Source of the DNA: Labia minor
Taxonomy: Eukaryota; Arthropoda; Insecta; Dermaptera; Spongiphoridae
Direction: 5' to 3'
Length of the DNA: 64,000 nucleotides
Assembly: GCA_963082975.1 (NCBI GenBank)
Contig: OY720346.1
Location: forward strand, 37,785,787-37,849,786
Part shown: positions 770-59,254 of the stretch, piece by piece
Layout: every line of letters starts with the position of its first letter
Position numbering within the stretch: the first letter of the stretch is position 1
Program-made: the position numbers and the translations under genes
Notes under the pieces: model-generated
Databases searched by the model: none
Seen by the model: only the letters and a program-made list of their open reading frames with translations
Told to the model about the DNA's origin: nothing

Positions 770-2629
770 TTAATGAGATGTATGCAGTTGTTTTCTTGAA
801 ACAAGAATCTCAATATCTGGCTTAATATTGGAAACTTTTAATCTAAGATCCGGCTCTACATTTAATTTGTTTCTATATTTAGACTTAATATAAAATAGTA
901 CCGAAAAAGCTTGTTCGCATAAATATGTTGTGCAGAATGGAATCAAGTGTTGAAGTGCTTTATTTGCAAGCGCAGGATAATCTGACCTGAGAAGTAACCA
1001 AAAGTTGCTCAATTCAGTTTTGTTAAATTTTAGTTTATAAGTTGTATCACATGATAATTCCACGAGAATATCTTGTTCAGGTGCAGATAAATGTTTAGCA
1101 TTTGTAATTTCCATATTAAATGGATCTCTGATCCAGTTATTGCAAGGATCAGGAGTAGAAAAATACTTCCTGAAGTTGCTTTTCAAAGTAATTAAATGTT
1201 CAACAAATAATTGACGCGTTTGATTAAGCAATTTTTCACTGGAGCTTTCTATGAAATCATTGAGAGTTGGAAAAGACTCATATACACCGTTCTGGATGCG
1301 TTTCGACCACAAGTCGATTTTTTTAATCATTGCTTCTATTTTATCTTCAACTTTAAATATATTTACAACAGTACCTTGCAGGCTCAAATTAAGTTCGTTC
1401 AATTTTGTAAAAATATCAGTCAAGTAAGCCACCTTAGCTAACCAGATAAAATCATTGAAACATTCGGTCAGTTCAAAATGCGCATCTATTAAAAACAATC
1501 GTATTTCATCTCGAAGCTCAAAAAGGCGAATGAGTACTTTCCCGCGGGACAACCAACGTACATCTGTATGTAATAATAAATGTGTATGTTGACTACCCAT
1601 TTCCTCACACAAAATTTTAAAAACTCTGGAATTAAGTGGACGAGCCTTAATGAAATTGACAATTTTAACTACTTCGTCTAATGTTCTTTTCAAATCTGGT
1701 GACATATTTTTGGCTGCTAATGATTCTCTGTGAATGCAGCAATGATTCCAAACAACCTGAGGCGCAACATTTTTAATAAGAGCAATCAATCCAGTTCTTG
1801 TACCTGACATTGCACGAGCACCATCAGTGCAAATTCCAACACATTTTGGCCACTCTATTTCATTTTCGGTTATAAAATTATTCAAACTGTTAAATATGTC
1901 ATTAGCTGTCGTTCGTGAAGGTAGTGAATCACAAAACAATACATCTTCTTGTATTTGATTTTCAAACTCATATCTAATGAAAGCTAACAAATTGGCATTA
2001 TTAGTGACATCAGTACTTTCATCCAATTGTAATGAGTAATAGTGACTTTTGCGCACTCTCGATATTAATTCTTCTTTTATATTACATGACATGTCTTCAA
2101 TCCTATTCTTAACCGTATCATTTGATAATGAAATCAAATTTATATCGTTTGCTGCTTTAGTTCCTAACATTATATTTGTAATTACTTTTGTAGCAGGAAG
2201 AATTAATTGCTCTGCTATATTATGCGGCTTTCCTGCTTTAGCAATAAGTAGAGCTACTTCATATGATGCCATTACTGCTTTCTTACTCATACCACCAGAT
2301 CCCGTCTTTACCATCAATTTCTGACTTGAATTAAGTTCTTCTTTTTTCATTTTAAAAAATTCGATAGACTTACTAACATGCTCGCTGTGCTTTGTTTGTA
2401 AATGACGTCTGAGATTAGCAGGTTTCATACTTTCATTGGATAAACTTTCCTGACATAGAACGCAGACTGGTCTTTCCACATCATTGTTGCAAATATAAGT
2501 AAATCCAAATGATAAATAATCATCCGAATATTTTCTAGTTTTGCGTTTCTTGGTAGAGTTTGCTGTTGATGCCTCATCATCTGATTCTTTCCGTTTCTGT
2601 GTTGAACCAGTTTGTAGCCAACGATCCAT
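770..2629 (-). CDS. hAT transposase, ZBED5/SCAND3-like, apparently intact
   Basis: 619 residues. Near the N-terminus is a basic segment (KKRKTRK) followed by a BED-type zinc finger (about residues 45-85: CVLC, then H-x4-H in RRHLQTKH). The middle holds the hAT RNase H-like core: LQLDESTDVT (first catalytic Asp region, about residue 200) and GICTDGARAM (second Asp region, about 265), then the CCIHRESLAAKNM insertion-domain segment. The C-terminus has the dimerisation motif with the likely catalytic Glu in TYLCEQAFSVL (about 575). Length is normal for this family and there is no internal stop or frameshift. The ATG at 2629 is chosen because MDRWL is the usual start of these proteins (family knowledge). 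The protein would bind the element ends and catalyse cut-and-paste transposition in the nucleus. Domestication is possible in this family, but the TIRs and duplication here argue for a live transposon gene. Confidence 0.92.
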   Translation of the reverse strand: MDRWLQTGSTQKRKESDDEASTANSTKKRKTRKYSDDYLSFGFTYICNNDVERPVCVLCQESLSNESMKPANLRRHLQTKHSEHVSKSIEFFKMKKEELNSSQKLMVKTGSGGMSKKAVMASYEVALLIAKAGKPHNIAEQLILPATKVITNIMLGTKAANDINLISLSNDTVKNRIEDMSCNIKEELISRVRKSHYYSLQLDESTDVTNNANLLAFIRYEFENQIQEDVLFCDSLPSRTTANDIFNSLNNFITENEIEWPKCVGICTDGARAMSGTRTGLIALIKNVAPQVVWNHCCIHRESLAAKNMSPDLKRTLDEVVKIVNFIKARPLNSRVFKILCEEMGSQHTHLLLHTDVRWLSRGKVLIRLFELRDEIRLFLIDAHFELTECFNDFIWLAKVAYLTDIFTKLNELNLSLQGTVVNIFKVEDKIEAMIKKIDLWSKRIQNGVYESFPTLNDFIESSSEKLLNQTRQLFVEHLITLKSNFRKYFSTPDPCNNWIRDPFNMEITNAKHLSAPEQDILVELSCDTTYKLKFNKTELSNFWLLLRSDYPALANKALQHLIPFCTTYLCEQAFSVLFYIKSKYRNKLNVEPDLRLKVSNIKPDIEILVSRKQLHTSH

Positions 2630-2644
2630 TTTATGGAGTAATTT

Positions 2645-2830
2645 ATTAACATTGAACTACAATAATATAAATATAATATAAATATAATATAAATATAACG
2701 AATTATTATTTACTAGCTATGTTTTAATATGATTTTAAATGAATGTTTTAATATCATTTTAAATGAATGTTTTAAATCATTTTAATAAATGTTTTAAATC
2801 ATTTTAAATAAATGATTTAATATCATTTTA
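2645..2830. repeat. AT-rich short tandem arrays upstream of the hAT transposase start
   Basis: About 2660-2700 repeats the word aatataaat, and 2718-2830 repeats a roughly 25-bp unit containing atgttttaatatcatttta with slippage variants. Both lie in the transposon, upstream of its minus-strand start codon. Nothing suggests coding. Confidence 0.75.
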
Positions 2831-2860
2831 AATGAATATTAATTTATATAATAAATATAT

Positions 2861-2950
2861 TTCGTAATTTGATTCTAAAATATTATTAATTTCGTAATTT
2901 GATTCTAAAATATTATTAATTTCGTAATTTGATTCTAAAATATTATTAAA
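2861..2950. repeat. Three exact 30-bp tandem repeats
   Basis: The unit ttcgtaatttgattctaaaa followed by tattattaat occurs three times head-to-tail without a spacer. It lies in the 5' non-coding part of the hAT element, upstream of the transposase. It is not a CRISPR: there are no spacers. Confidence 0.9.
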
Positions 2951-3130
2951 ATAAATATTTTTTATTCATAAAACTAACTTATACTTACTCTCAAAAACAG
3001 CCTTTCTGGGAAATTGCAAAATGTGTTTAGTGTTTTTATAAAATAATGATCATGCAAATTACACTAAAAATTAAAAAAAATTATTAGCTATAATAAACTA
3101 TTATTAGCTATAATTTAATTTTAATTAATT

Positions 3131-4494: not shown

Positions 4495-4668
4495 TTTTAG
4501 GTAGTAAAGGAAGAGTAAGATGCGGGAATCAACTATCAGAAACTTTCGAAATTCGGAAAGGGTTAAAAGAAGGAGACGCATTATCACCAATTCTATTTAA
4601 TTTAGTTCTGGAATATGTAATTAGCCAAATTGGGTGAAAATTAAATGGAATAGAATTAAACAAAAACA
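4495..4668 (+). pseudogene. LINE reverse-transcriptase fragment, 5' piece of split copy L1
   Basis: Translates with interruptions to CGNQLSETFEI and EGDALSPILFNLVLEYVI, the RT palm segment before the catalytic box. It continues after the Helentron insertion at 5510. The minus-strand copy at 46945-47184 shows the same region unbroken. Confidence 0.85.
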
Positions 4669-5509
4669 AAATGTGCAGCATCGTACACGTGGCGGAAGTG
4701 AAACTTCTTACAATCTAGAGAATAAGATAAATTTTAGTTGAGAGTGTGAGTGAGAGAGAAATAGAGAAAAATAAAGGGATCATTTCGAAAGACATATAAC
4801 AGTATAAAATTTTAGGCAAGATTACGCAAAAACGGTTTGAGCTAGAATGATGAAATTTGGTACATGGACATTATTCAAAATTCATAGTTTTCTATCAAGT
4901 TTTGAGAAATGTAGGTCAACCGGAAGAGGGTCATTACCTACAACGTTTTGATTTTTTTTCCTCTAAAGTGACCGTAAAAATAAAGATATATGTTTGATAA
5001 TTTTTCACATGATTAATAATTGTATAAAACTGCTATATATAGAATTTCAGCTTGATTGATTCGCTAAAATTACCAGAATTAATTTTTTAACACTGCAAAT
5101 CTCACGCGCCAACACGTAACGTGGTGCCATCAACAAAAAGCCAAACATGCGCTGGTTTAATATTTATTATTTATTATTTATAATTTATAATTAATTAAAT
5201 TTAATTTAAATATAATATATTATGTTATTTAATCCAATTCAAATTGCGAGATAGTCGAGTGGAGACACTCCAGCTAATTATATATGACTTAACTAGCGCG
5301 CATGCGCGTCATGGACTTTGGACCTAGAGTGGGGATTAGAACGAAAGACAGCACAAAAGAGAGACGCAGATAGAGGCTATCTCATTCTCACTCGTTATAC
5401 CTATATCTTCTTTCTCTCTTGCGTTACGTTACGAAATTTCAATTTTTCAATTCACTCTCCATTCTCAACCAAATGTCAGGACGCCGCTAAAGAAGTTTCA
5501 CTTCAAAAA
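4669..5509. mobile_element. Non-autonomous family C Helentron inserted in LINE L1
   Basis: Left about 150 bp (4669-4816) matches 22521-22666 essentially base for base; the right about 220 bp (5293-5509) matches 24550-24866. These are the two ends of the endonuclease-bearing Helentron at 22.5-24.9 kb. The word gaagtgaaacttctt lies subterminally at the left and inverted at the right tip. Comparison with the uninterrupted LINE copy at 46.9-47.0 kb shows a precise insertion in an A-run with no target duplication, as expected for Helentrons. The interior is replaced by family A copy A2. Confidence 0.82.
4814..5275 (+). mobile_element. Family A Helentron-like element, copy A2 (5' truncated)
   Basis: Begins at the ggcaagattacgcaaaaacg core and runs through tgatgaaatttggtac to the 3' block gcgagatagtcgag and hairpin gagtggagacactc, ending ccagct. 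It lacks the 5' hairpin and the microsatellite. It lies inside the non-autonomous family C element, giving a three-level nest with the LINE. Confidence 0.88.
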
Positions 5510-8403: not shown

Positions 8404-9016
8404 ACTATCTCGCCAGAGATAGTATTGCGATCACGAACATTTTCGATGTTGAGATTTTGATGTTTTTATACGTTTTGAAGGTTCCTGAATCATTTTCACT
8501 AAGGTTGAGAAAAATGTCTGTGTGTGTGTGTGTGTATGTGTGTATGTGTGTGTGTGTGTATGTATGTAGGCAAGATTACGCAAAAACGGTTTGAGCTAGA
8601 ATGATGAAATTTGGTACATGGACATTATTCAAAATTCATAGTTTTCTATCAACTTTTGAGAAATGTAGCTCAACCGAAAGAGGGTCATTACCTACAACGT
8701 TTTGATTTTTTTTCCTCTAAAGTGAACGTAAAAATAAAGATTTGATAATTTTTCACATGATTAATAATTGTATAAAACTGCTATATATAAAATTTCAGCT
8801 TGATTGATTCGCTGAAATTACCAGAATTAATTTTTTAACACTGCAAATCTCACGCGCCAACACGTGACGTGGTGCCATCAACAAAAAGCCAAACATGCGC
8901 TGGTTTAATATTTATTATTTATTATTTATAATTAATTAAATTTAATTTAAATATAATATATTATGTTATTTAATCCAATTCAAATTGCGAGATAGTCGAG
9001 TGGAGACACTCCAGCT
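8404..9016 (+). mobile_element. Family A Helentron-like element, copy A3 (complete reference copy)
   Basis: 613 bp. The 5' tip is a perfect hairpin, actatctc-gcca-gagatagt. A TG microsatellite follows (8519-8565), then the core acggtttgagctagaatgat with gatgaaatttggtac. The 3' subterminal block gcgagatagt is the inverse of the 5' tip and is followed by the terminal hairpin gagtg-gaga-cactc and ccagct. There is no coding capacity and no flanking duplication; it sits between A/T-rich bases. This asymmetric inverted-repeat and hairpin layout is that of Helentron-associated elements (HINE/DINE-1 type). Confidence 0.88.
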
Positions 9017-10443: not shown

Positions 10444-10866
10444 AGAGGTTCTCAAACTTTTTTGTGTCGTAAACCCCTTGCCATGTTTTTTGGTTTAGGT
10501 AGACCTCCTACTTATCTGATATTGATTTTTTGTAAATTTCTAACTGTAGTGAAGTTTAATGTTAAAAATTTTAAGAAACAATACCTCCCTTACTATCGTC
10601 GGTCGGTAAAAATGCACATGTTAAGTTTTATACATTTATTAATTGAATTTAAATTTTAAAACTATTCAAAATAAATCTGTATGTATCTGTTATCTAAAAT
10701 ATTCGTAACATAAAATAAATAAACTAAACTAAACAATAAGTAAATGTTTTAGTGGGAAGGATGAACCTGATGCTTTAATAATAAATTATCAACATTTGGC
10801 GTCAATTTTGTAAGATTTAATCTTAAATCTCCTCGACAAATGATGTCCAGTGTTTTTTTGTCATAA
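10444..10866 (-). mobile_element. Degraded hAT element end with transposase C-terminus
   Basis: Starts with the hAT-like end cagaggttctcaaac, which abuts the broken LINE L2. The minus strand at 10749-10866 encodes CRGDLRLNLTKLTPNVDNLL followed by KHQVHPSH and a stop. This parallels the C-terminus of the intact transposase at 770-2629 (PDLRLKVSNIKPDIEILV...TSH) and lies a similar distance from the end. The right end was not found. Confidence 0.65.
10578..10612 (-). mobile_element. Family B Helentron-like 5' tip only
   Basis: A 35-bp stretch matching the inverse of the family B head (ttaccgaccgacgatagtaa, then gggaggtattg). It may be an abortive or heavily deleted insertion inside the degraded hAT. 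Confidence 0.65.
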
Positions 10867-11140
10867 ACTCTACAAGTTTATATTATTTTAAATATTTTCT
10901 TAGCACTTTCCTTTTCAAGATTTAGGAAGCAAATAATTTGTCTCATATTCGTATTTATAGAGAGGCGAATTGAACAAGTCAGTGCATGTTCGCGAAGCTT
11001 TGGGACAAAAATTGACAATAATTTTTACTGTGGGTATGATAAGATGATATTGGTATAGCATTATGTGCAGATTTTGAAGAAAATGTATTAGAACACAAAG
11101 CAAATGCCTACATCCTATAACTTACACAATTTTATAAACA

Positions 11141-11371
11141 TACTAGCTGCTCAGAGCGCCTTCGGCGCTCTTCACACCTAGACGGGGGCTCCGCCCCCTG
11201 TACCCCCGAGTGTTACATAGTATTTGGTGGTTGAAAGTAGTAAAAGGTTTTCATCCATTTTGTTTCAATCAGTATATTACATAAAACATTCATTTCTTTT
11301 TGTGTTCTTATTTAAAAAATATATTTTAATTTAATCACTATATTAATTATATATTATTATTGTATATGCTA
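11141..11371. repeat. Left arm of inverted repeat, GC-rich hairpin border
   Basis: Starts ctagctgctcagagcgcc and has two strong hairpins: gagcgcc-ttc-ggcgctc and gggggc-tcc-gccccc. An AT-rich 170-bp segment follows and runs into the 3' end of LINE L3. Its inverse, with a few substitutions, is at 13663-13890. No coding. The family is not recognised. Confidence 0.85.
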
Positions 11372-20270: not shown

Positions 20271-22520
20271 TTTTTTATTTTATATAATAACTTTTAGTAA
20301 GTTTAGTATTTTTCTATCAAAAATCTATTTAGGCATTATATAAATTATTTTAAAAATTAAAATATTTTTTTATGAATTTTATTCAAAAATAATTTTTTGT
20401 TTTTAATACCTTAAAGGTATATGACACAATTAAGCGAGTGGTAGAACTCCCTAAGTTATTTTTTAGTAAAAAACAGAGTTTTTTCAATATTAATGTTTAT
20501 GAAGCTCTTCGCTATTTATTATTATTTGATGAATAAAATATTAAACTTCTTTTTCATAAGCTTTTCGTAATGATCTACGTTCCCTCTAGTTTTTACTTTT
20601 AATGCATGCATATAATAAATGAATTACGATAGAGATATAAAAATAAAATAAAAAAAGGAAAACAACAAAATTAGGGTTGGAAAAAAATATTTTTAAGAAG
20701 ATTTATGTAAAACTTTTTCAAGAGAAATAAGAATATTATAAAAGTATAACAAAGTCATTTGATATATTGAGCATATTTCTATTTAGCATCCATAAGAAAG
20801 CTCTGAAAAATAATATGAATAGGGTTGGGGTAAAAATAAATAAATAAATTGAATAGATCAATTGATTTTACCTACCAAATTTATTTTTTTACGATTCTCA
20901 AATATTCTAGTTTTAATTTATTTTCCTAACCTTAATCTCAATAAAAGTTAATAAAATTATAATTTACCTTCTATTTTATTATATTTTTCTATTTTAATAT
21001 TTTCATTTTTATTTTTAATTAATATATATAACCTCAAAATATAAAGTTAATGAAAATATTATTCTCAGAAATTTATTTTTAATTAAAATATATACTTACT
21101 AACCACTTTATAATTTATAAATTAGTAAATATTAATTAATTAGTAACTTACAAAGTATATTTTTTATTTAATAGACATTAATGGTATAATTTATAATCAA
21201 AACAATTCATGTTTATTTTAATGTAGTATAAAGTATAATATAAGAAAATGATTTTTATAATAATAAATGATTACCGAGTCGTATTCGTGGTAGTTTTTAA
21301 AAGAATAGGAGGTAAATGAAGGGAAGAAAATAGCGATGTCGTTAAGAAAAAGGTGGAATGGATCGTTCCAAGCTGGCTTTAATGTTGATTGGAGTATAAA
21401 AGTACCTGAAGACAAGCAATGACAGCCAAAAGGCCAATGTAATGAACCAGGTGTCCATTATGAACTGTTTCATTATATTTTCATTATTATTACTATTGTT
21501 TTTATCTTCAATGTTTGAAATAAAAATAAAAAGTAGACAAATCGGTGTCTTGAATGTAAAAAAATAAAATTCTTATAAAATAATTATCAAAAAGAAATAC
21601 GAGGTGTGGCTATAAAATAACGAAACGATTGCTGAAAAACAATTTATTTTGAATTTATTTATTTTTAGTTGTTATCACTTTCCTTATACATCCCTCTTGT
21701 GAGAATATCGATCATAGTAACATTTTCAATGTTTTACCATTTAAAAATTAATTTAATTTTTAAGGGAGGTGCTGTAACAGTTTGGAAACCACCATTATAA
21801 AATTCATAGTAGTTCACAAACTTATTTGTGGCCTACCACACCCTTTTCACAAAAAATATTACTCAACGACCCATAAAAATTATTTTTTTTTTATATAAAT
21901 TTTAATAAAAACTAAACACAGAAAGATATAATTATTAATATAATGTATTTATATTCCTACATTTTTCATAAAACTTGTAAAGAAATCTCCTCTCCTTTTA
22001 TACTATAAAAAAAATAATAACGTAATAAATTTTAATAAAGTCTTCTGATATTTATTTATTTATTTAAGATGTTAAAAAAATAAATATCTTTATCCCCTCT
22101 CTTCTCGGTTGATAATTTCAAAAAAAAATATTTAGAATTAATTACAAGATTAATTTAAAAACAATTATAAACAAAAATATTTATAATAAATAATCTTATT
22201 CTAAGTAACCCATTATATATAGAAAAATATATTATTAATTATTTCTTGGTCATTTATTTTTAGTATTTTATCTCATTTTTACTGTGAGATAATGTTCCCT
22301 TAGATTCCGATAATAAAATATATTAATTTTTGTTAAAATAAAAATATATGTACACCCAAAAAGTCTACGATGAATCATAAAATAAATTCTAGAGATTATT
22401 AAGATAGTAAAATATTATAAATTAAATTTCCAAAATTCTACTTTTATTTACCATAATATATAATATTTAGTCCAATCGGGTATATCTCGTGAAATATTTA
22501 TAAAATATAAAAAAAAAGCA
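20271..22520. other. AT-rich spacer with two weak transposon-end candidates
   Basis: At 21599 tacgaggtgtggctataaaa resembles a mariner-type terminus and continues for under 200 bp. At about 21812 agtagttcacaaacttattt resembles a hAT non-coding end. No matching opposite ends were found. Otherwise there is nothing recognisable. Confidence 0.35.
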
Positions 22521-22698
22521 AAATGTGCAGCATCGTACACGTGGCGGAAGTGAAACTTCTTACAATCTAGAGAATAAGATAAATTTTAGTTGAGAGTGTG
22601 AGTGAGAGAGAAATAGAGAAAAATAAAGGGATCATTTCGAAAGACATATAACAGTATAAAATTTTCGTAACAAATATTCGCTTTATTATTATTATTAT

Positions 22699-23270
22699 CT
22701 ACTCTATCATCATATCTACATTGCCTGTACTATTGTCGGTTGGTGCTTCAATTGGTAATACTGATATTAATGGCTTGTGATAACTAAAATAAGATATATA
22801 TGTTCGTGATTCGATATTTTCTATATAACGTGTAAAAACAGCATCTATTGTAGTTCCAGATTTTGTTGTTGATTCCTTGGGATCGTTATTTATAAGCAGA
22901 CCAAATGTTTCTCGAAGAAAGTTGATCAACGGCAACGAATCATCTCAGATCCAAAATTTACATTAAAATCTCCCCCGAGAATTAGAGGGATTTTATCTTC
23001 GCCTCGTTCAAGTGCATTAGCACCTGTGTGGCTATAAACCAGTAGTGAACGGTGTATGAAATAAATAATATCGTCTAAATTTTGGTCGTTATTTTTTTTC
23101 GGCATAGTGAAATCTGTGGAGTAGAGAAAAGCAGTTTTAAATGCAATAATAATTTCAAATTGATTTAGTAGTGTTAAAGTAATGTTGAGATTCGGATAAA
23201 TAACGTGAATGGTCATCGACGCACATAACTGTATGTGTTGGCGTGTGAATCGCCGACCATGTTCACACAC
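22699..23270 (-). pseudogene. Helentron endonuclease-domain pseudogene (EEP nuclease fold)
   Basis: Two overlapping frames, 23270-22926 and 22935-22699, joined by one frameshift. The first contains DDIIYFIHRSLLVYSHTGAN and then IPLILGGDFNVNF, the GDFN motif of exo/endo-phosphatase nucleases. The second contains LINFLRETFGLLINNDPKES, TKSGTTIDAVFTRYIENI and SYFSYHKPLISVLP, where TTIDAVF and the S-x-HKP motif correspond to the C-terminal catalytic Asp/His region. From family knowledge this combination is the endonuclease domain at the C-terminus of Helentron Rep-helicase proteins, often annotated as PIF1-like helicase. No upstream helicase motifs are left. The frameshift means it is not expressed as one protein. 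Confidence 0.82.
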
Positions 23271-23574
23271 ACAATTACATGCGTCGGTATGCGTGCACGC
23301 TGTATATTTGACTTGAGAATTTTAATTATTTCACGATATATATCTTATCTTATTATGCTAGCTAAAATTGTATATATCTATCTATTTATCTATAACCATT
23401 GGTTCTCAAAAACCGCTCTAACGATTTTTTTCAAATTCACACTAGATATAGTATTTATAAAGAAAAATTGAGTTTTATTGATTACATCTCTTGAAACTTA
23501 CAGCTTCATTATTAATTTCTTAATTGAAAATTATATATGGGTGACGTAAATGGCATCCATTTTGAAATTTTACT

Positions 23575-24005
23575 CCCGCCTTTTTTTAATTTTGTATTAA
23601 TATTTTTTTTATATTTAAAATATTTTAAAATTTATTATTTAATTTCGAAATAAAATTAAAAATATTTATTTTTAATAAAATATATATATATATTTATTAA
23701 TCCCGCTTTTTTTTTAAATGATATTGTATTAACATTTTTTTATATTTAAAATATTTTAAAATTCATTATTTAATTTCGAAATTTTATATTTAAAATATTT
23801 TAAAATTTATTATTTAATTTCGAAATAAAATTAAAAATATTTATTTTTAATAAAATATATATATATATTTATTAATCCCGCTTTTTTTTTAAATGATATT
23901 GTATTAACATTTTTTTATATTTAAAATATTTTAAAATTCATTATTTAATTTCGAAATAAAATTAAAAATATTTATTTTTAATAAAATATATATATATTTA
24001 TTAAT
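23575..24005. repeat. AT-rich tandem repeat, unit 125-175 bp
   Basis: Units begin with cccgc followed by a T-run (about 23575, 23702, 23877) and contain attatttaatttcgaaat and taaaatatatatatatattt. Two and a half to three units are present, with one internal duplication. It lies inside the Helentron between the endonuclease relic and the 5' end. Confidence 0.85.
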
Positions 24006-24032
24006 CTCTCTCAAAAAATATGAAATACGTTT

Positions 24033-24383
24033 AATATTAAAAATAAATAAATATACATATGAAATTTGTTATTTTTTAATATTAAAAAATATTTAATTTG
24101 AGATTAATTATATAAAAAATTTTAAAAAATTCAAAAAAACTTAGCTATAATATTTGACATATGATAAGGTTAATTACAATTTTTTAATAGACATCCTTAA
24201 TAAATAGAAAAATAATAATTTTTAAATAATATAAATAATATTTAATTATAATCTAATCAAAGAAAATAAAAGTTTGAATCTATTTGATAGTTGATCTTTT
24301 TACATATAATTAATCTCAAATTAAATATTTTTTAATATTAAAAAAAAATAACAAATTTCATATGTATATTTATTTTTATAAAT
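24033..24383. repeat. Inverted repeat, about 85-bp arms
   Basis: 24033-24117 (atatacatatgaaatttgtt ...) and 24298-24383 are inverse copies, with about 180 bp between. It may be a small foldback MITE inserted in the Helentron, but no target duplication can be chosen confidently in this AT-rich context. Confidence 0.7.
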
Positions 24384-24596
24384 GATTAGGCAAATTTTGA
24401 AATTAATATATATTTAAATTCAAATTGTATTTAATTGCGATATCTACTGGACAAGGTGGAGATCTCGCCCTCTTTTGATCATAAGTCATACTAATTTTTA
24501 TTCTTTGACCCAGTAGAAGCTGAGAAATATTATTCCGGGTCAACGTACTCGCGCGCATGCGCGCCATGGACTTTGGACCTAGCGAGAGGGTATTAG

Positions 24597-24735
24597 AACG
24601 AAAGACAGCACAAAAGCAACACGCAGATAGCCTCTTTCTCAAGAACGAAAGACCGGACAAAAGAAAGACGCAGATAGCCTCTTTCTCAATAACGAAACAC
24701 CGCACAAAAGAGAGACGGAGATAGAGGCTATCTCA
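24597..24735. repeat. Three 47-bp tandem repeats near the Helentron 5' end
   Basis: The unit aacgaaagac...cacaaaag...acgcagatag occurs at 24597, 24644 and 24691. The small derivative at 5340-5385 has only one unit, so copy number varies between family members. Confidence 0.85.
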
Positions 24736-24961
24736 TTCTCACTCGTTATATCTATATCTTTTTTCTCTCTTACGTTACGAATGCGTTACGAAATTTCAAT
24801 TTTTCAATTCACTCTCCATTCTCAACCAAATGTCAGGACGCCGCTAAAGAAGTTTCACTTCAAAAACAAATTAGATATTTTTGAATAACTATTTATATTT
24901 TTAAAAATTTTAAATCGCGTTAATAATTATAATTATTTTTTTTTTTTTACAAACAAAAAAT

Positions 24962-25498
24962 AAGCTGAAGTGTTTCCACTCGACTACCTCGCAATTTGAA
25001 TTGGACTAAATTACATATATTATATTTAAATTAAATTTAATTAATTATAAATTAAAATTAATAAATAATATTTATTAAACCAGCGCATGTTTGGCTCTGT
25101 TGATGGCACCAGGTGTTGGCGCGTGATTTGCAGTGTTAAAATTTTAATACTGGTACATTCAGGTATTCAATCAAGCTGAAATTCTATATATAGCAGTTTT
25201 ATACAATTTTTAATCAAGTGAAAAATTATCAAACATATATCTTTATTTTTACGGTCAGTATAAAGAAAAAAAAAATGAAAACGTGGTAGGTAATGACCCT
25301 CTTCCGGATGAGCTACATTTCTCAAAAGTTGATAGAAAACTACGAATTTTGAATAATGCCCGAATACCAAATTTCATTATTCTAGCTCAAACCGTTTTTT
25401 TCGTAATCTTGTCTACAAACGCACACAGACACACACACCCAATAATTTTTCTCAACCTTTTGTTAGTTGAAATACTTTCAGGGACCTTCAAAACGTAA
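24962..25498 (-). mobile_element. Family A Helentron-like element, copy A4
   Basis: Minus-strand copy starting at gctgaagtgtttccactcga (a variant of the 3' hairpin region) and running to ggaccttcaaaacgtaacgt, with a short CA run. It has no 5' hairpin. It forms one arm of a large inverted duplication with 35484-36394. Confidence 0.85.
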
Positions 25499-30237: not shown

Positions 30238-30692
30238 TCTCCACTCGACTATCTCGCAATTTGAATTGGATTAAATAACATAATATATTATATTTAAATT
30301 AAATTTAATTAATTATAAATTATAAATAATAAATATTAAACCAGGGCATATGTTTGTTTTTTTATTGATGGCACCATGGCACGTGTTAGCGCGTGAGATT
30401 TGCAGTGTTAAAAAATTAATTCTGGTACTTTCAACGATTCAATCAAGCTGAAATTCTATATATAGCAGTTTTATACAATTATTAATCATGTGAAAAATTA
30501 TCAAACATATATCTTTATTTTTACGGTCACTTTAGAGGAAAAAAAATCAAAACGTTGTAGGTAATGACCCTCTTCCGGTTGAGCTACATTTCTCAAAAGT
30601 TGATATAAAACTATGAATTTTGAATAATGCTCATGTACCAAATTGCATCATTCTAGCTCAAACCGTTTTTGCGTAATCTTGTCTACATACAT

Positions 30693-35888: not shown

Positions 35889-36394
35889 CTACGTTTTGAA
35901 GGTCCCTGAAAGTATTTCAACTAACAAAAGGTTGAGAAAAATTATTGGGTGTGTGTGTCTGTGTGCGTTTGTAGACAAGATTACGAAAAAAACGGTTTGA
36001 GCTAGAATAATGAAATTTGGTATACGGGCATTATTCAAAATTCGTAGTTTTTTATCAACTTTTGAGAAAGGTAGCTCATCCGGAAGAGGGTCATTACCTA
36101 CCACGTTTTCATTTTTTTTTCTTTAAACTGACCGTAAAAATAAAGATATATGTTTGATCATTTTTCACTTGATTAAAAATTGTATAAAACTGCTATATAT
36201 AGAATTTCAGCTTGATTGAATCCCTGAAAGTACCGGTATTAAATTTTTAACACTGTAAATCACGCGCCAACACGTGACGTGGTGCCAAACACGCACTGAT
36301 TTAATATATATTAATTAATTAAATTTAATTTAAATATAATATATGTTATTTAATCCAATTCAAATTGCGAGATAGTCGAGTGGAGACACTCCAG
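35889..36394 (+). mobile_element. Family A Helentron-like element, copy A7
   Basis: Plus-strand copy from cgttttgaaggtccctgaaa through a GT run and the core gtttgagctagaataatgaa to gcgagatagtcgagtggaga and ccag. It lacks the 5' hairpin tip and shares variant bases with A4, so the two are close relatives. Confidence 0.88.
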
Positions 36395-44773: not shown

Positions 44774-45322
44774 AGCTGGAGTGTCTCCATTCGACTATCT
44801 CGCAATTTGAATTGGATTAAATAACATAATATATTAAATTAAATTTAATTAATTATAAATTATAAATAATAAATATTAAATATTAAACCAGCGCATGTTT
44901 GGTTTGTTGATGGCGCGTGAGATTTGCAGTGTTAAAAAATTAATTCTGGTACTTTCAGCGAATCAATCAAGCTGAAATTATATATATAGCAGTTTTATAC
45001 AATTATTAATCATGAGAAAAATTATCAAACATATATCTTTATCTTTACGGTCACTTTAGAGGAAAAAAAATCAAAACGTTGTAGGTAATGACCCTCTTCC
45101 GGCTGAGCTACATTTCTCAAAAGTTGATAGAAAACTACGAATTTTGAATAATGCTCATGTACCAAATTTCATCATTCTAGCTCACACACACACACACACA
45201 CAGACAGACATTTTTCTCAACCTTAGTGAAAATGATTCAGGAACCTTCAAAACGTATAAAAACATCAAAATCTCAACATCGAAAATTTTCGTGATCGCAA
45301 TACTATCTCTTACGAGATAGTA
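44774..45322 (-). mobile_element. Family A Helentron-like element, copy A9
   Basis: Minus strand: 3' end agctggagtgtctccattcg at 44774, 5' tip hairpin actatctc-ttac-gagatagt at the right. A small deletion has removed the part of the core between ctagctc and the CA run. Confidence 0.9.
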
Positions 45323-46184: not shown

Positions 46185-47800
46185 TTCTATCTATCTATGT
46201 GGCTCTAACTCGAAAGTTCTTGGCCGTAGCATCCACATTTCTCCAAGGGTCCCTATTCTGAGCCACAACCCTCCAATTCATACCCACTCCCATCTCTCTC
46301 ACGTCCCTCCCTACATTATCCACCCACCGCGTCCTTCTTCTTGAAAGTGAACGTTTCCCATTCGGTCTCCTCACCAATATATTTTTCGCCATTCTTTCTT
46401 CTCCCATTCTAGCCACCTGCTCTGCCCATTGCAGCCTCTTCGATTTTATAATTCAAACTATGTCTGGAGATTCATAGAGATCATGCAATTCCTAGTTATA
46501 CAGTTTTCGTCATTCTCCGGTTACCTCATCTTCTTTGGCCCATAAATATTGCGAATAATCCTATTCTCAAATACTCTCGTCTGCCAGGGTCTTAGACCAG
46601 GCCTCATACCCATATAATACAACCGGAAAAATAATTGCTCCATATATTTAATTTCGATCCTCTTTTATAATAGTTTTGATGAGATAAGCCCCTTACTTCA
46701 TGATAACAGGCGTTACTCGATTACAACCTCGATTTAAATTCTTCTCGAATATTATTATCCTTTGTGATTTCAGATCCTAAGTATTTAATATTTCTACATT
46801 TTCAAATTCTACATTTTCTATTTTAAGACTTTGTGTGTTAATACTATTATTCCCCCCTCTCTGTTACTAAATACTCTTTTCTAAGCACTATTAATTTCCT
46901 GCCCCACCTCTTTTCCTGCTTCGATTAATTTTTCAACGCTCTCTTTAATTGCAATTGCCGAATCTCCTTTTATATTCAAGTCGTCTGAGTAACCTAATAC
47001 TTGAATTTTTTTGTTTTAATTGAATTCCATTTGATTTTTCCTCAATTTGTCTAATTACATATTCCAGTATTAAATTAAATAAAATTGGTGATACTGCGTC
47101 TCCTTGTTTTAACACAATCTGAATTTCGAAAGTTTCTGACAGTTGATTCCCGCAACTTACTCTTCCTTTACTCCCGCAAGACAAATTTGAATCATACGTA
47201 CTAGTTTTTTTGGAATTCTCATTAAGATCATCTTTTGAAAAAGTTTATCCCGGTCTAGTGAGTCATATACTTCTGTAAAGTCTACAAAAAGTTAGAAACA
47301 GAAATATTGAATTCGCGTTTATTTTTCTAATATCTGTCTTAATGAAAATATCTGATCTAGAGTTGATCGATTTAGCCTGAACCCGCATTGATATTCTCCT
47401 AATATTTCCTCCGCATATGGTCGTAATTTTATTAAAACAATATTCGAGAGAATGTCGATGTCGTCAAAAGAGAAATTCCCCTGTAGTTATTGCAGTCCGT
47501 TCTATTTTCTTTCTTAAAAAGTGGGATAATAATTGCCTCTTGCCATTTCAATAGAATCTTTTTTATGCCAGAAGAACTAATTTGTGCATACACTCTACTA
47601 AAGGTTTTCCTCCATTTTTCATTAATTCTGTCAGGATCCCATCTACTTCCGCTGCTTTATTATTTTTAAATTTTCTACCTCATATAACATTGGTTCCTCG
47701 AGATTAATTTTTGCTGAATCTACCGTTAAGGTTTCTGTTCTATTACCTAGATTCGAATTTCTCTATATATTTATAATATCGTCCACGTCTGTTTTTAAAT
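46185..47800 (-). pseudogene. LINE copy L5, the longest reverse-transcriptase relic in the window
   Basis: Minus strand, 3' end at the left beside a tatctatctat tail. Reading 5' to 3' (right to left): the KAAEVDGI-like region (about 47660), NNYRGISLL (about 47490), AEEILGEYQCGFRLNRSTLD (47350-47420), SETFEIQIVLKQGDAVSPIL and FNLILEYVIRQIEEKSNGIQ (46945-47184), the SDDL catalytic-box region (about 46975, decayed from YADD), and the tail RMGEERMAKNILVRRPNGKR (46195-46416). Many frameshifts. It provides the uninterrupted comparison for the insertion site at 4669/5509. It is a non-LTR retrotransposon; the clade is not settled. Confidence 0.85.
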
Positions 47801-58666: not shown

Positions 58667-59254
58667 CTGGAGTGTCTCCACTCGACTATCTCGCAAATTT
58701 GAATTGAATTAATTAACATATATTATGTTTAAATTTAATAAATTAAATTATAAATTAAAAAATAATAATTATTAAACAGGTGCGTGTTTGGCTCTTTGTT
58801 GATGACACCACGTCACCTGCTGGCGCGTGATTTGCAGTCGTGTTAAAAAATTAATTCCGGTACTTTCAGTGATTCAATCAAGCTGAAATTCTATATATAG
58901 CAGTTTTAAACAATTTTGAATCATGTGAAAAACTATCAATCATATATCACTATTTTTACCGTCGGTTTAGATGAAAAAAAATGAAAACGTGTCAAGTAAT
59001 GACCCACTTCCGGTTGAGCTATATTTCTCAAAAGTTAATAGAAAACTACGAATTTTGAATGCCCATGTAGTACCAAATTTCATGATACTAGCTCAAACAA
59101 TTTTTGCGTAATCTTGTCTACATAGACACACACATTCAGACATATTTCTCAACCTTTGTGAAAATGACTCAGAGACCTTCAAAACGTATAAAAACATCAA
59201 AATCTCGAAATCGAAAATTTTCGTGATCGCAATACTATCTCTGACGAGATAGTA
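58667..59254 (-). mobile_element. Family A Helentron-like element, copy A10 (complete)
   Basis: Minus strand: 3' end ctggagtgtctccactcgac at 58667, 5' tip hairpin actatctc-tgac-gagatagt ending at 59254. The CA run is short (59126-59136). Confidence 0.9.

Follow-up and report, generated by a model that had tools for sequence, protein, structure and literature searches.

A non-autonomous Helentron derivative in Labia minor with the ends of a Rep-helicase-endonuclease element

The window, meaning the whole 64,000-nucleotide stretch analysed (C4:37785787-37849786 of a 604 Mb host genome in 71 contigs), contains on its minus strand a 2.35 kb member of a Helentron family with its 5' tip at 24866 and its 3' tip at approximately 22518 (22518-22520), and a 0.84 kb derivative with the same ends. 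The 2.35 kb element is a HINE (non-autonomous Helentron), a kind of element already known, although the family is new. We are highly confident in the reading as a whole, namely that it stems from an internally deleted Helentron, shares its ends with a full-length gene and would be copied in trans. The class assignment is based on the palindromic subterminal repeats, the T-rich target, the Rep signature and the presence of a Rep-helicase-endonuclease gene between the same ends.

Ends, layout and insertion target

The features of both elements are listed below with their basis; those with no strand given are unstranded.

22518..24866, minus strand: whole non-autonomous Helentron derivative, 2.35 kb form (end order and span at four other C1 places, and alignments)
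24847..24861: 5' subterminal palindromic inverted repeat (word search)
22547..22561: subterminal inverted repeat of the 3' end, at 27-29 nt from its tip (word search)
22518..22546, minus strand: 3' tail (hairpin unsupported by folding)
22699..23105, minus strand: fusion ORF, frameshifted in the window copy to 59 aa (frames and copy comparison)
23124..23343, minus strand: full-gene leader, retained ahead of the start codon (220 nt aligned with the full-length copy at 98.6%)
23607..24087: AT-rich tandem array of 175-nt units (without a match in the full-length copy)
24018..24865, minus strand: 5' region (94.8% identity across 869 columns of the alignment with the full-length copy)
4667..5509, minus strand: 0.84 kb derivative with the common ends, endonuclease lost, repeat R inside (at least 4813-5205) (alignments, word search)
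46851..47180, minus strand: paralogue lacking the 0.84 kb insertion (empty site), in LINE-like reverse transcriptase sequence (alignment)

An exact 15-nt inverted word (GAAGTGAAACTTCTT/AAGAAGTTTCACTTC) was located at 22547 and 24847 and again at 4695 and 5490, and no further site was found in the window at up to one mismatch. The repeat has a self-palindromic core and is preceded by a T-run, with the T-run tip at 24862-24866 (AAAAA on the plus strand) adjoining the 5' subterminal repeat. This corresponds to the 12-15 nt palindromic subterminal inverted repeats of Helentrons and HINEs, the 5' one a few nucleotides from the tip, as described in PMC4067079. The 3' repeat lies 27-29 nt from the tip compared with approximately 38-60 nt in the HINE families of mites, a range given in the same paper that is descriptive of mite elements. 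Helentrons and HINEs have a short 3' stem-loop, whereas the stem of the derivative is weak: the 47-nt 3' end folded with a z of -0.46 relative to shuffles (63/200 shuffles folded equally well or better), and inspection by eye gave no more than a 5-bp stem that includes one G.T pair, apart from the palindromic subterminal word. Of the ends as proposed by the sequence-only reading, the 5' tip and the inverse word subterminal at the 3' end were confirmed and the 3' hairpin was not supported by folding.

The GDFN and TTIDAVF...SYFSYHKP blocks, from which a Helentron-type endonuclease had been recognized in the sequence, are indeed present on the minus strand, in overlapping frames at 22926-23321 and 22699-22944 with a frameshift between them. 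Recurrence of both flanks as the ends of the 0.84 kb element 17 kb away was likewise borne out, with 98% identity between the 3' blocks (4655-4813 against 22507-22665), 93% over 176 nt between the 5' blocks and a spacing of 17.0 kb. The 0.84 kb element is 98.1% identical over 639 nt to a further locus (L004). Alignment with its one empty site, the paralogue at 47180-46851, placed the junction of the insertion inside an A/T run with no other duplication. A run of at least five T preceded all 5/5 five-prime tips read, and further T followed the common end in 15/16 distinct three-prime tips, 1/16 being without extra T (17/18 rows, two copies having been entered twice). The T-runs and the empty site fit the T-rich target and lack of target duplication reported for Helentrons in PMC4067079.

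An interspersed repeat, R, occurs in many copies and both orientations, in the window at 4828-5107, 8582-8861, 25112-25391, 30384-30663, 35988-36267, 44908-45187 and 58819-59098; it is also found within the 3.06 kb and 0.84 kb derivatives.

The full-length copy and the deletion junction

The Rep-helicase of an intact Helentron (L043) served as a query against the genome, and the downstream flanks of seven matches were read. The family 3' end was present in 1/7 (C2:16284500-16288000), leading to a full-length element at C2:16278760-16286303 with the same 5' tip and 3' repeat as the derivative. The Rep-helicase-endonuclease gene that the sequence-only reading had expected between such ends thus exists, with its reading frame broken at two points (frames of 779, 753 and 442 aa). 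Helitron_like_N was matched at 81 bits, PIF1 at 105 bits and Exo_endo_phos at 28.9 bits (cut-off 24.5), in keeping with the Rep, PIF1 helicase and C-terminal AP-type endonuclease of a Helentron partner, and the endonuclease lies in the same reading frame as the C-terminal motifs of the helicase. The Rep bears the Helentron signature YFKRIEFQHRGSPHAH, the signature being given in PMC4067079 as aromatic-x-R and RGSPH.

Comparison of a 3.06 kb derivative (L050) with this copy gave 92% identity in the 5' region, 99% in the leader, 100% over a 40-nt stretch spanning the start codon and 8 codons, and 98.4% over the last 573 nt, containing the endonuclease tail and 3' end. Element positions 2470-2509 and 2507-3079 map to 5343-5382 and 10732-11304, revealing an internal deletion of 5352 nt (1784 codons), which is in frame and has 3 nt of microhomology at its junction. 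The resulting fusion ORF of 134 aa consists of the first 8 codons of the full gene and the last 126, the endonuclease tail. Deletion from the full-length copy cannot by itself account for the derivative, since neither repeat R nor the AT-rich tandem array has a counterpart there. Family membership is assigned on at least 11 nt of identical subterminal repeat and subfamily membership on at least 80% identity over the last 60 nt; derivative and full-length copy share 15/15 nt of the repeat and the 98.4% identical terminal stretch, placing them in one family and subfamily.

The endonuclease of the derivative is 96% identical over 128 aa to that downstream of Rep and helicase in the full-length copy and colinear with it up to the 3' end, and so belongs with the Helentron, as the sequence-only reading had held. 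That a LINE fragment truncated at its 5' end was captured between unrelated inverted repeats is, given this identity and colinearity, extremely improbable, despite the Exo_endo_phos_2 type of the domain, which non-LTR elements carry too and to which the endonuclease match is weak (E 0.0072, under cut-off). Pfam searches with two window frames and a phmmer search of PDB with one window frame gave no match, while a profile of the full endonuclease and three relatives gave 8 PDB matches at E up to 0.1, the best an exodeoxyribonuclease (9.5e-4).

Copies across the genome and the state of the endonuclease piece

The 146-nt 3' block (22521-22666) matched at 100% in 40/40 scored places (best 40 of 1060 candidates) and the 317-nt 5' block at 98-100% in 40/40, window included (best 40 of 1235 candidates). 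As these are the best-scored candidates, copy numbers are lower bounds. Recurrence on this scale is not a matter of chance. Paired ends in the same order were found at four other C1 places with spans of 2346, 2427, 2346 and 2343 nt, so the 2.35 kb form of the window recurs. Other forms, containing repeat R, measure approximately 3.06 kb (L050, and the two copies of L052) and about 2.9 kb (L051); L046 and L050 are one copy, as are L047 and L051. At L049 (C4:84345800-84351600) two endonuclease-bearing copies lie tail to tail, the first without a recognizable 3' end at the junction.

The endonuclease piece was present in all 40 copies sampled by their perfect 146-nt 3' end, and 39 of these, L075 being left out, could be aligned with a mean pairwise divergence of 0.37%; this sample lies entirely on C1:1.03-28.36 Mb, and its selection by a perfect 3' block favours young copies. 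Eight copies read individually have differing flanks. The endonuclease-bearing copies are therefore a form that has multiplied, and recently. The sequence-only reading had regarded the window copy as a relic in an unusual state of decay, a description that has to give way to that of an ordinary internal-deletion product, since the endonuclease, of which the C-terminal part alone is kept, adjoins the 3' end in the gene. That a single autonomous Helentron is decaying here and kept its endonuclease by chance, as the frameshift and the missing Rep and helicase of the window copy might suggest, is very improbable in view of the 40/40 copies with the same structure, the differing flanks and the 134-aa ORF kept in 27/40.

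When an unshifted copy's 206-aa frame, taken from stop to stop, was the query, 150/150 scored matches were open, 129 of them at the top score (best 150 of 1475); because the query was unshifted these matches cannot yield a ratio of intact to frameshifted copies. Among these 150 places, and thus for the scored subset, 22 neighbouring pairs lie within 25 kb compared with 0.95 expected and a maximum of 5 in 2000 uniform random draws, and their orientations are 8 convergent, 7 divergent and 7 tandem.

The 134-aa ORF is whole in 27/40 sampled copies, and 10/40 have, as the window copy does, a 2-nt insertion that shifts the frame and leaves 59 aa. As for the rest, L077 has a frame without a start codon, one copy stops at 99, and L075 has the start motif, extra sequence before the 3' repeat and a frame ending at 114. 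In a set of 17 distinct copies the ORF was of 134 aa in 12 and 59 aa in 5. The frameshift marks a subfamily, and this subfamily has multiplied too.

Alignment with three other Helentron-type endonucleases of the host genome indicated that GDxN, TxID and YHKP are retained in the endonuclease piece, while an invariant Asn and an invariant Glu precede the junction and are lost. These two residues we take to represent catalytic motifs I and II. Derivative copies differ from the full-length copy by 3-4 replacement and 1-2 silent codon changes. Among 29 unshifted copies, with L075 set aside, the distinct codon variants comprised 1 silent and 14 other, the latter including one stop and one at the start codon. 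Approximately 25% silent variants are expected in the absence of selection, under which one or fewer of 15 has a probability of 0.08, and the codon changes reveal no constraint on the piece.

Three features could be taken to indicate that the 134-aa protein works in trans, for example by competing with or repressing the complete transposase, and so helped the family to spread: the leader and start codon are retained from the full gene, the fusion is in frame, and 27/40 copies have the whole ORF. We regard this as very unlikely, because both the Asn of motif I and the Glu of motif II are gone, frameshifted copies (10/40) were amplified nonetheless, the 1 synonymous to 14 other variants indicate no codon constraint, and a deletion is expected to fall in frame one time in three. 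The endonuclease piece is most likely a passenger kept as a neighbour of the 3' end, an interpretation suggested by the loss of motifs I and II together with the unconstrained codon changes.

Mobilization and relation to other rolling-circle elements

In the history that best explains the data, an internal deletion took Rep, the helicase and the beginning of the endonuclease out of a Helentron of approximately 7.5 kb; what stayed were the 5' end, the leader, the start codon and 8 codons, and the endonuclease tail together with the 3' end. Such a derivative would be copied in trans by a rolling-circle mechanism, through a Rep-helicase-endonuclease recognizing the common ends; it inserts in T-runs, the leftover endonuclease piece most likely riding along. 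The full-length copy is broken and, depending on the stretch, 92-99% identical to the derivatives, and hence did not give rise to them directly in recent times. When the Rep half of this copy was the query, the only same-family match among the 58 scored of 101 candidates was the copy itself and the next best was 71% identical; at 17 places within the same 58 the alignment covers no more than the first 29-110 residues of that gene (71-97% identity), and these may, judging from the alignments, be other deletion derivatives. Two neighbouring stretches at C5:6421524-6422336 match only its first 110 residues (95-96%) and may be a deletion derivative of another kind. An active source might be absent from the assembly, have been lost or be polymorphic; alternatively, a different Helentron may work on the ends. 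It is conceivable, though we think it rather improbable, that the family has survived the loss of its own transposase and that a different Helentron, recognizing the ends in trans, mobilized the near-identical derivatives very recently.

Several candidate partners were rejected. L039-L041 are canonical Helitrons with RGLPH and no significant endonuclease match in the fetched stretches, and L042 and L044 have an RGSPH-type Rep without an endonuclease match. The elements at C2:71.58 Mb and C1:72.86 Mb, with approximately 71% DNA identity, represent another subfamily. L043 (C1:47861000-47870900, minus strand), likewise rejected, resembles the gene of this family in encoding Rep, PIF1 and endonuclease, here in one intact 2181-aa frame, but identity is 34% in the Rep half and 37% over 76 aa of the endonuclease, and its C-terminus bears a Ulp1-like stretch (PF02902, 19.4 bits against a cut-off of 20.7). 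The sequence fetched for L043, extending just 465 nt beyond the upstream end of the frame, shows no occurrence of the family end word at up to two mismatches. A scan of viral contigs with the L043 Rep-helicase found no relative.

Other rolling-circle genes were observed in the genome. Eight copies of a canonical Helitron with RGLPH (L015-L021 and L023, e.g. C9:43365333 and C10:14925745) have open frames of 1537-1655 aa, seven with equal profile scores, and from these frames the element may be active. L042 and L044 encode Rep-helicase proteins of 1785 and 1754 aa with no C-terminal endonuclease match, and in L044 a retroelement-like open frame adjoins that of the Rep-helicase.

The family resembles the HINEs and DINE-1-like elements treated by Thomas, Vadnagara and Pritham (2014; PMC4067079) in its palindromic 12-15 nt repeats, T-rich target without duplication, deletion derivatives that outnumber their partner, and internal tandem repeats. 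It differs from HINE-Mo-1-7, described there as without coding capacity, in the in-frame ORF of start codon and endonuclease tail kept in 27/40 sampled copies; no HINE with an in-frame endonuclease-tail ORF was found in the literature searched. The non-autonomous FoHeli1 elements of Fusarium oxysporum (PMC5148889) similarly form very similar copies in genomes in which a putative autonomous copy was not found, but are of the Helitron2 type, and that study found fungal elements to have no endonuclease, whereas one broken full-length copy is present here.

One Helentron family has in this way been read nearly fully in one genome, with its ends, target, empty site, full-length gene, deletion junction and derivative lineages. 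The contrast between a single broken full-length copy and a young population of derivatives makes it a usable case for the question of cross-family action by Helentron transposases.
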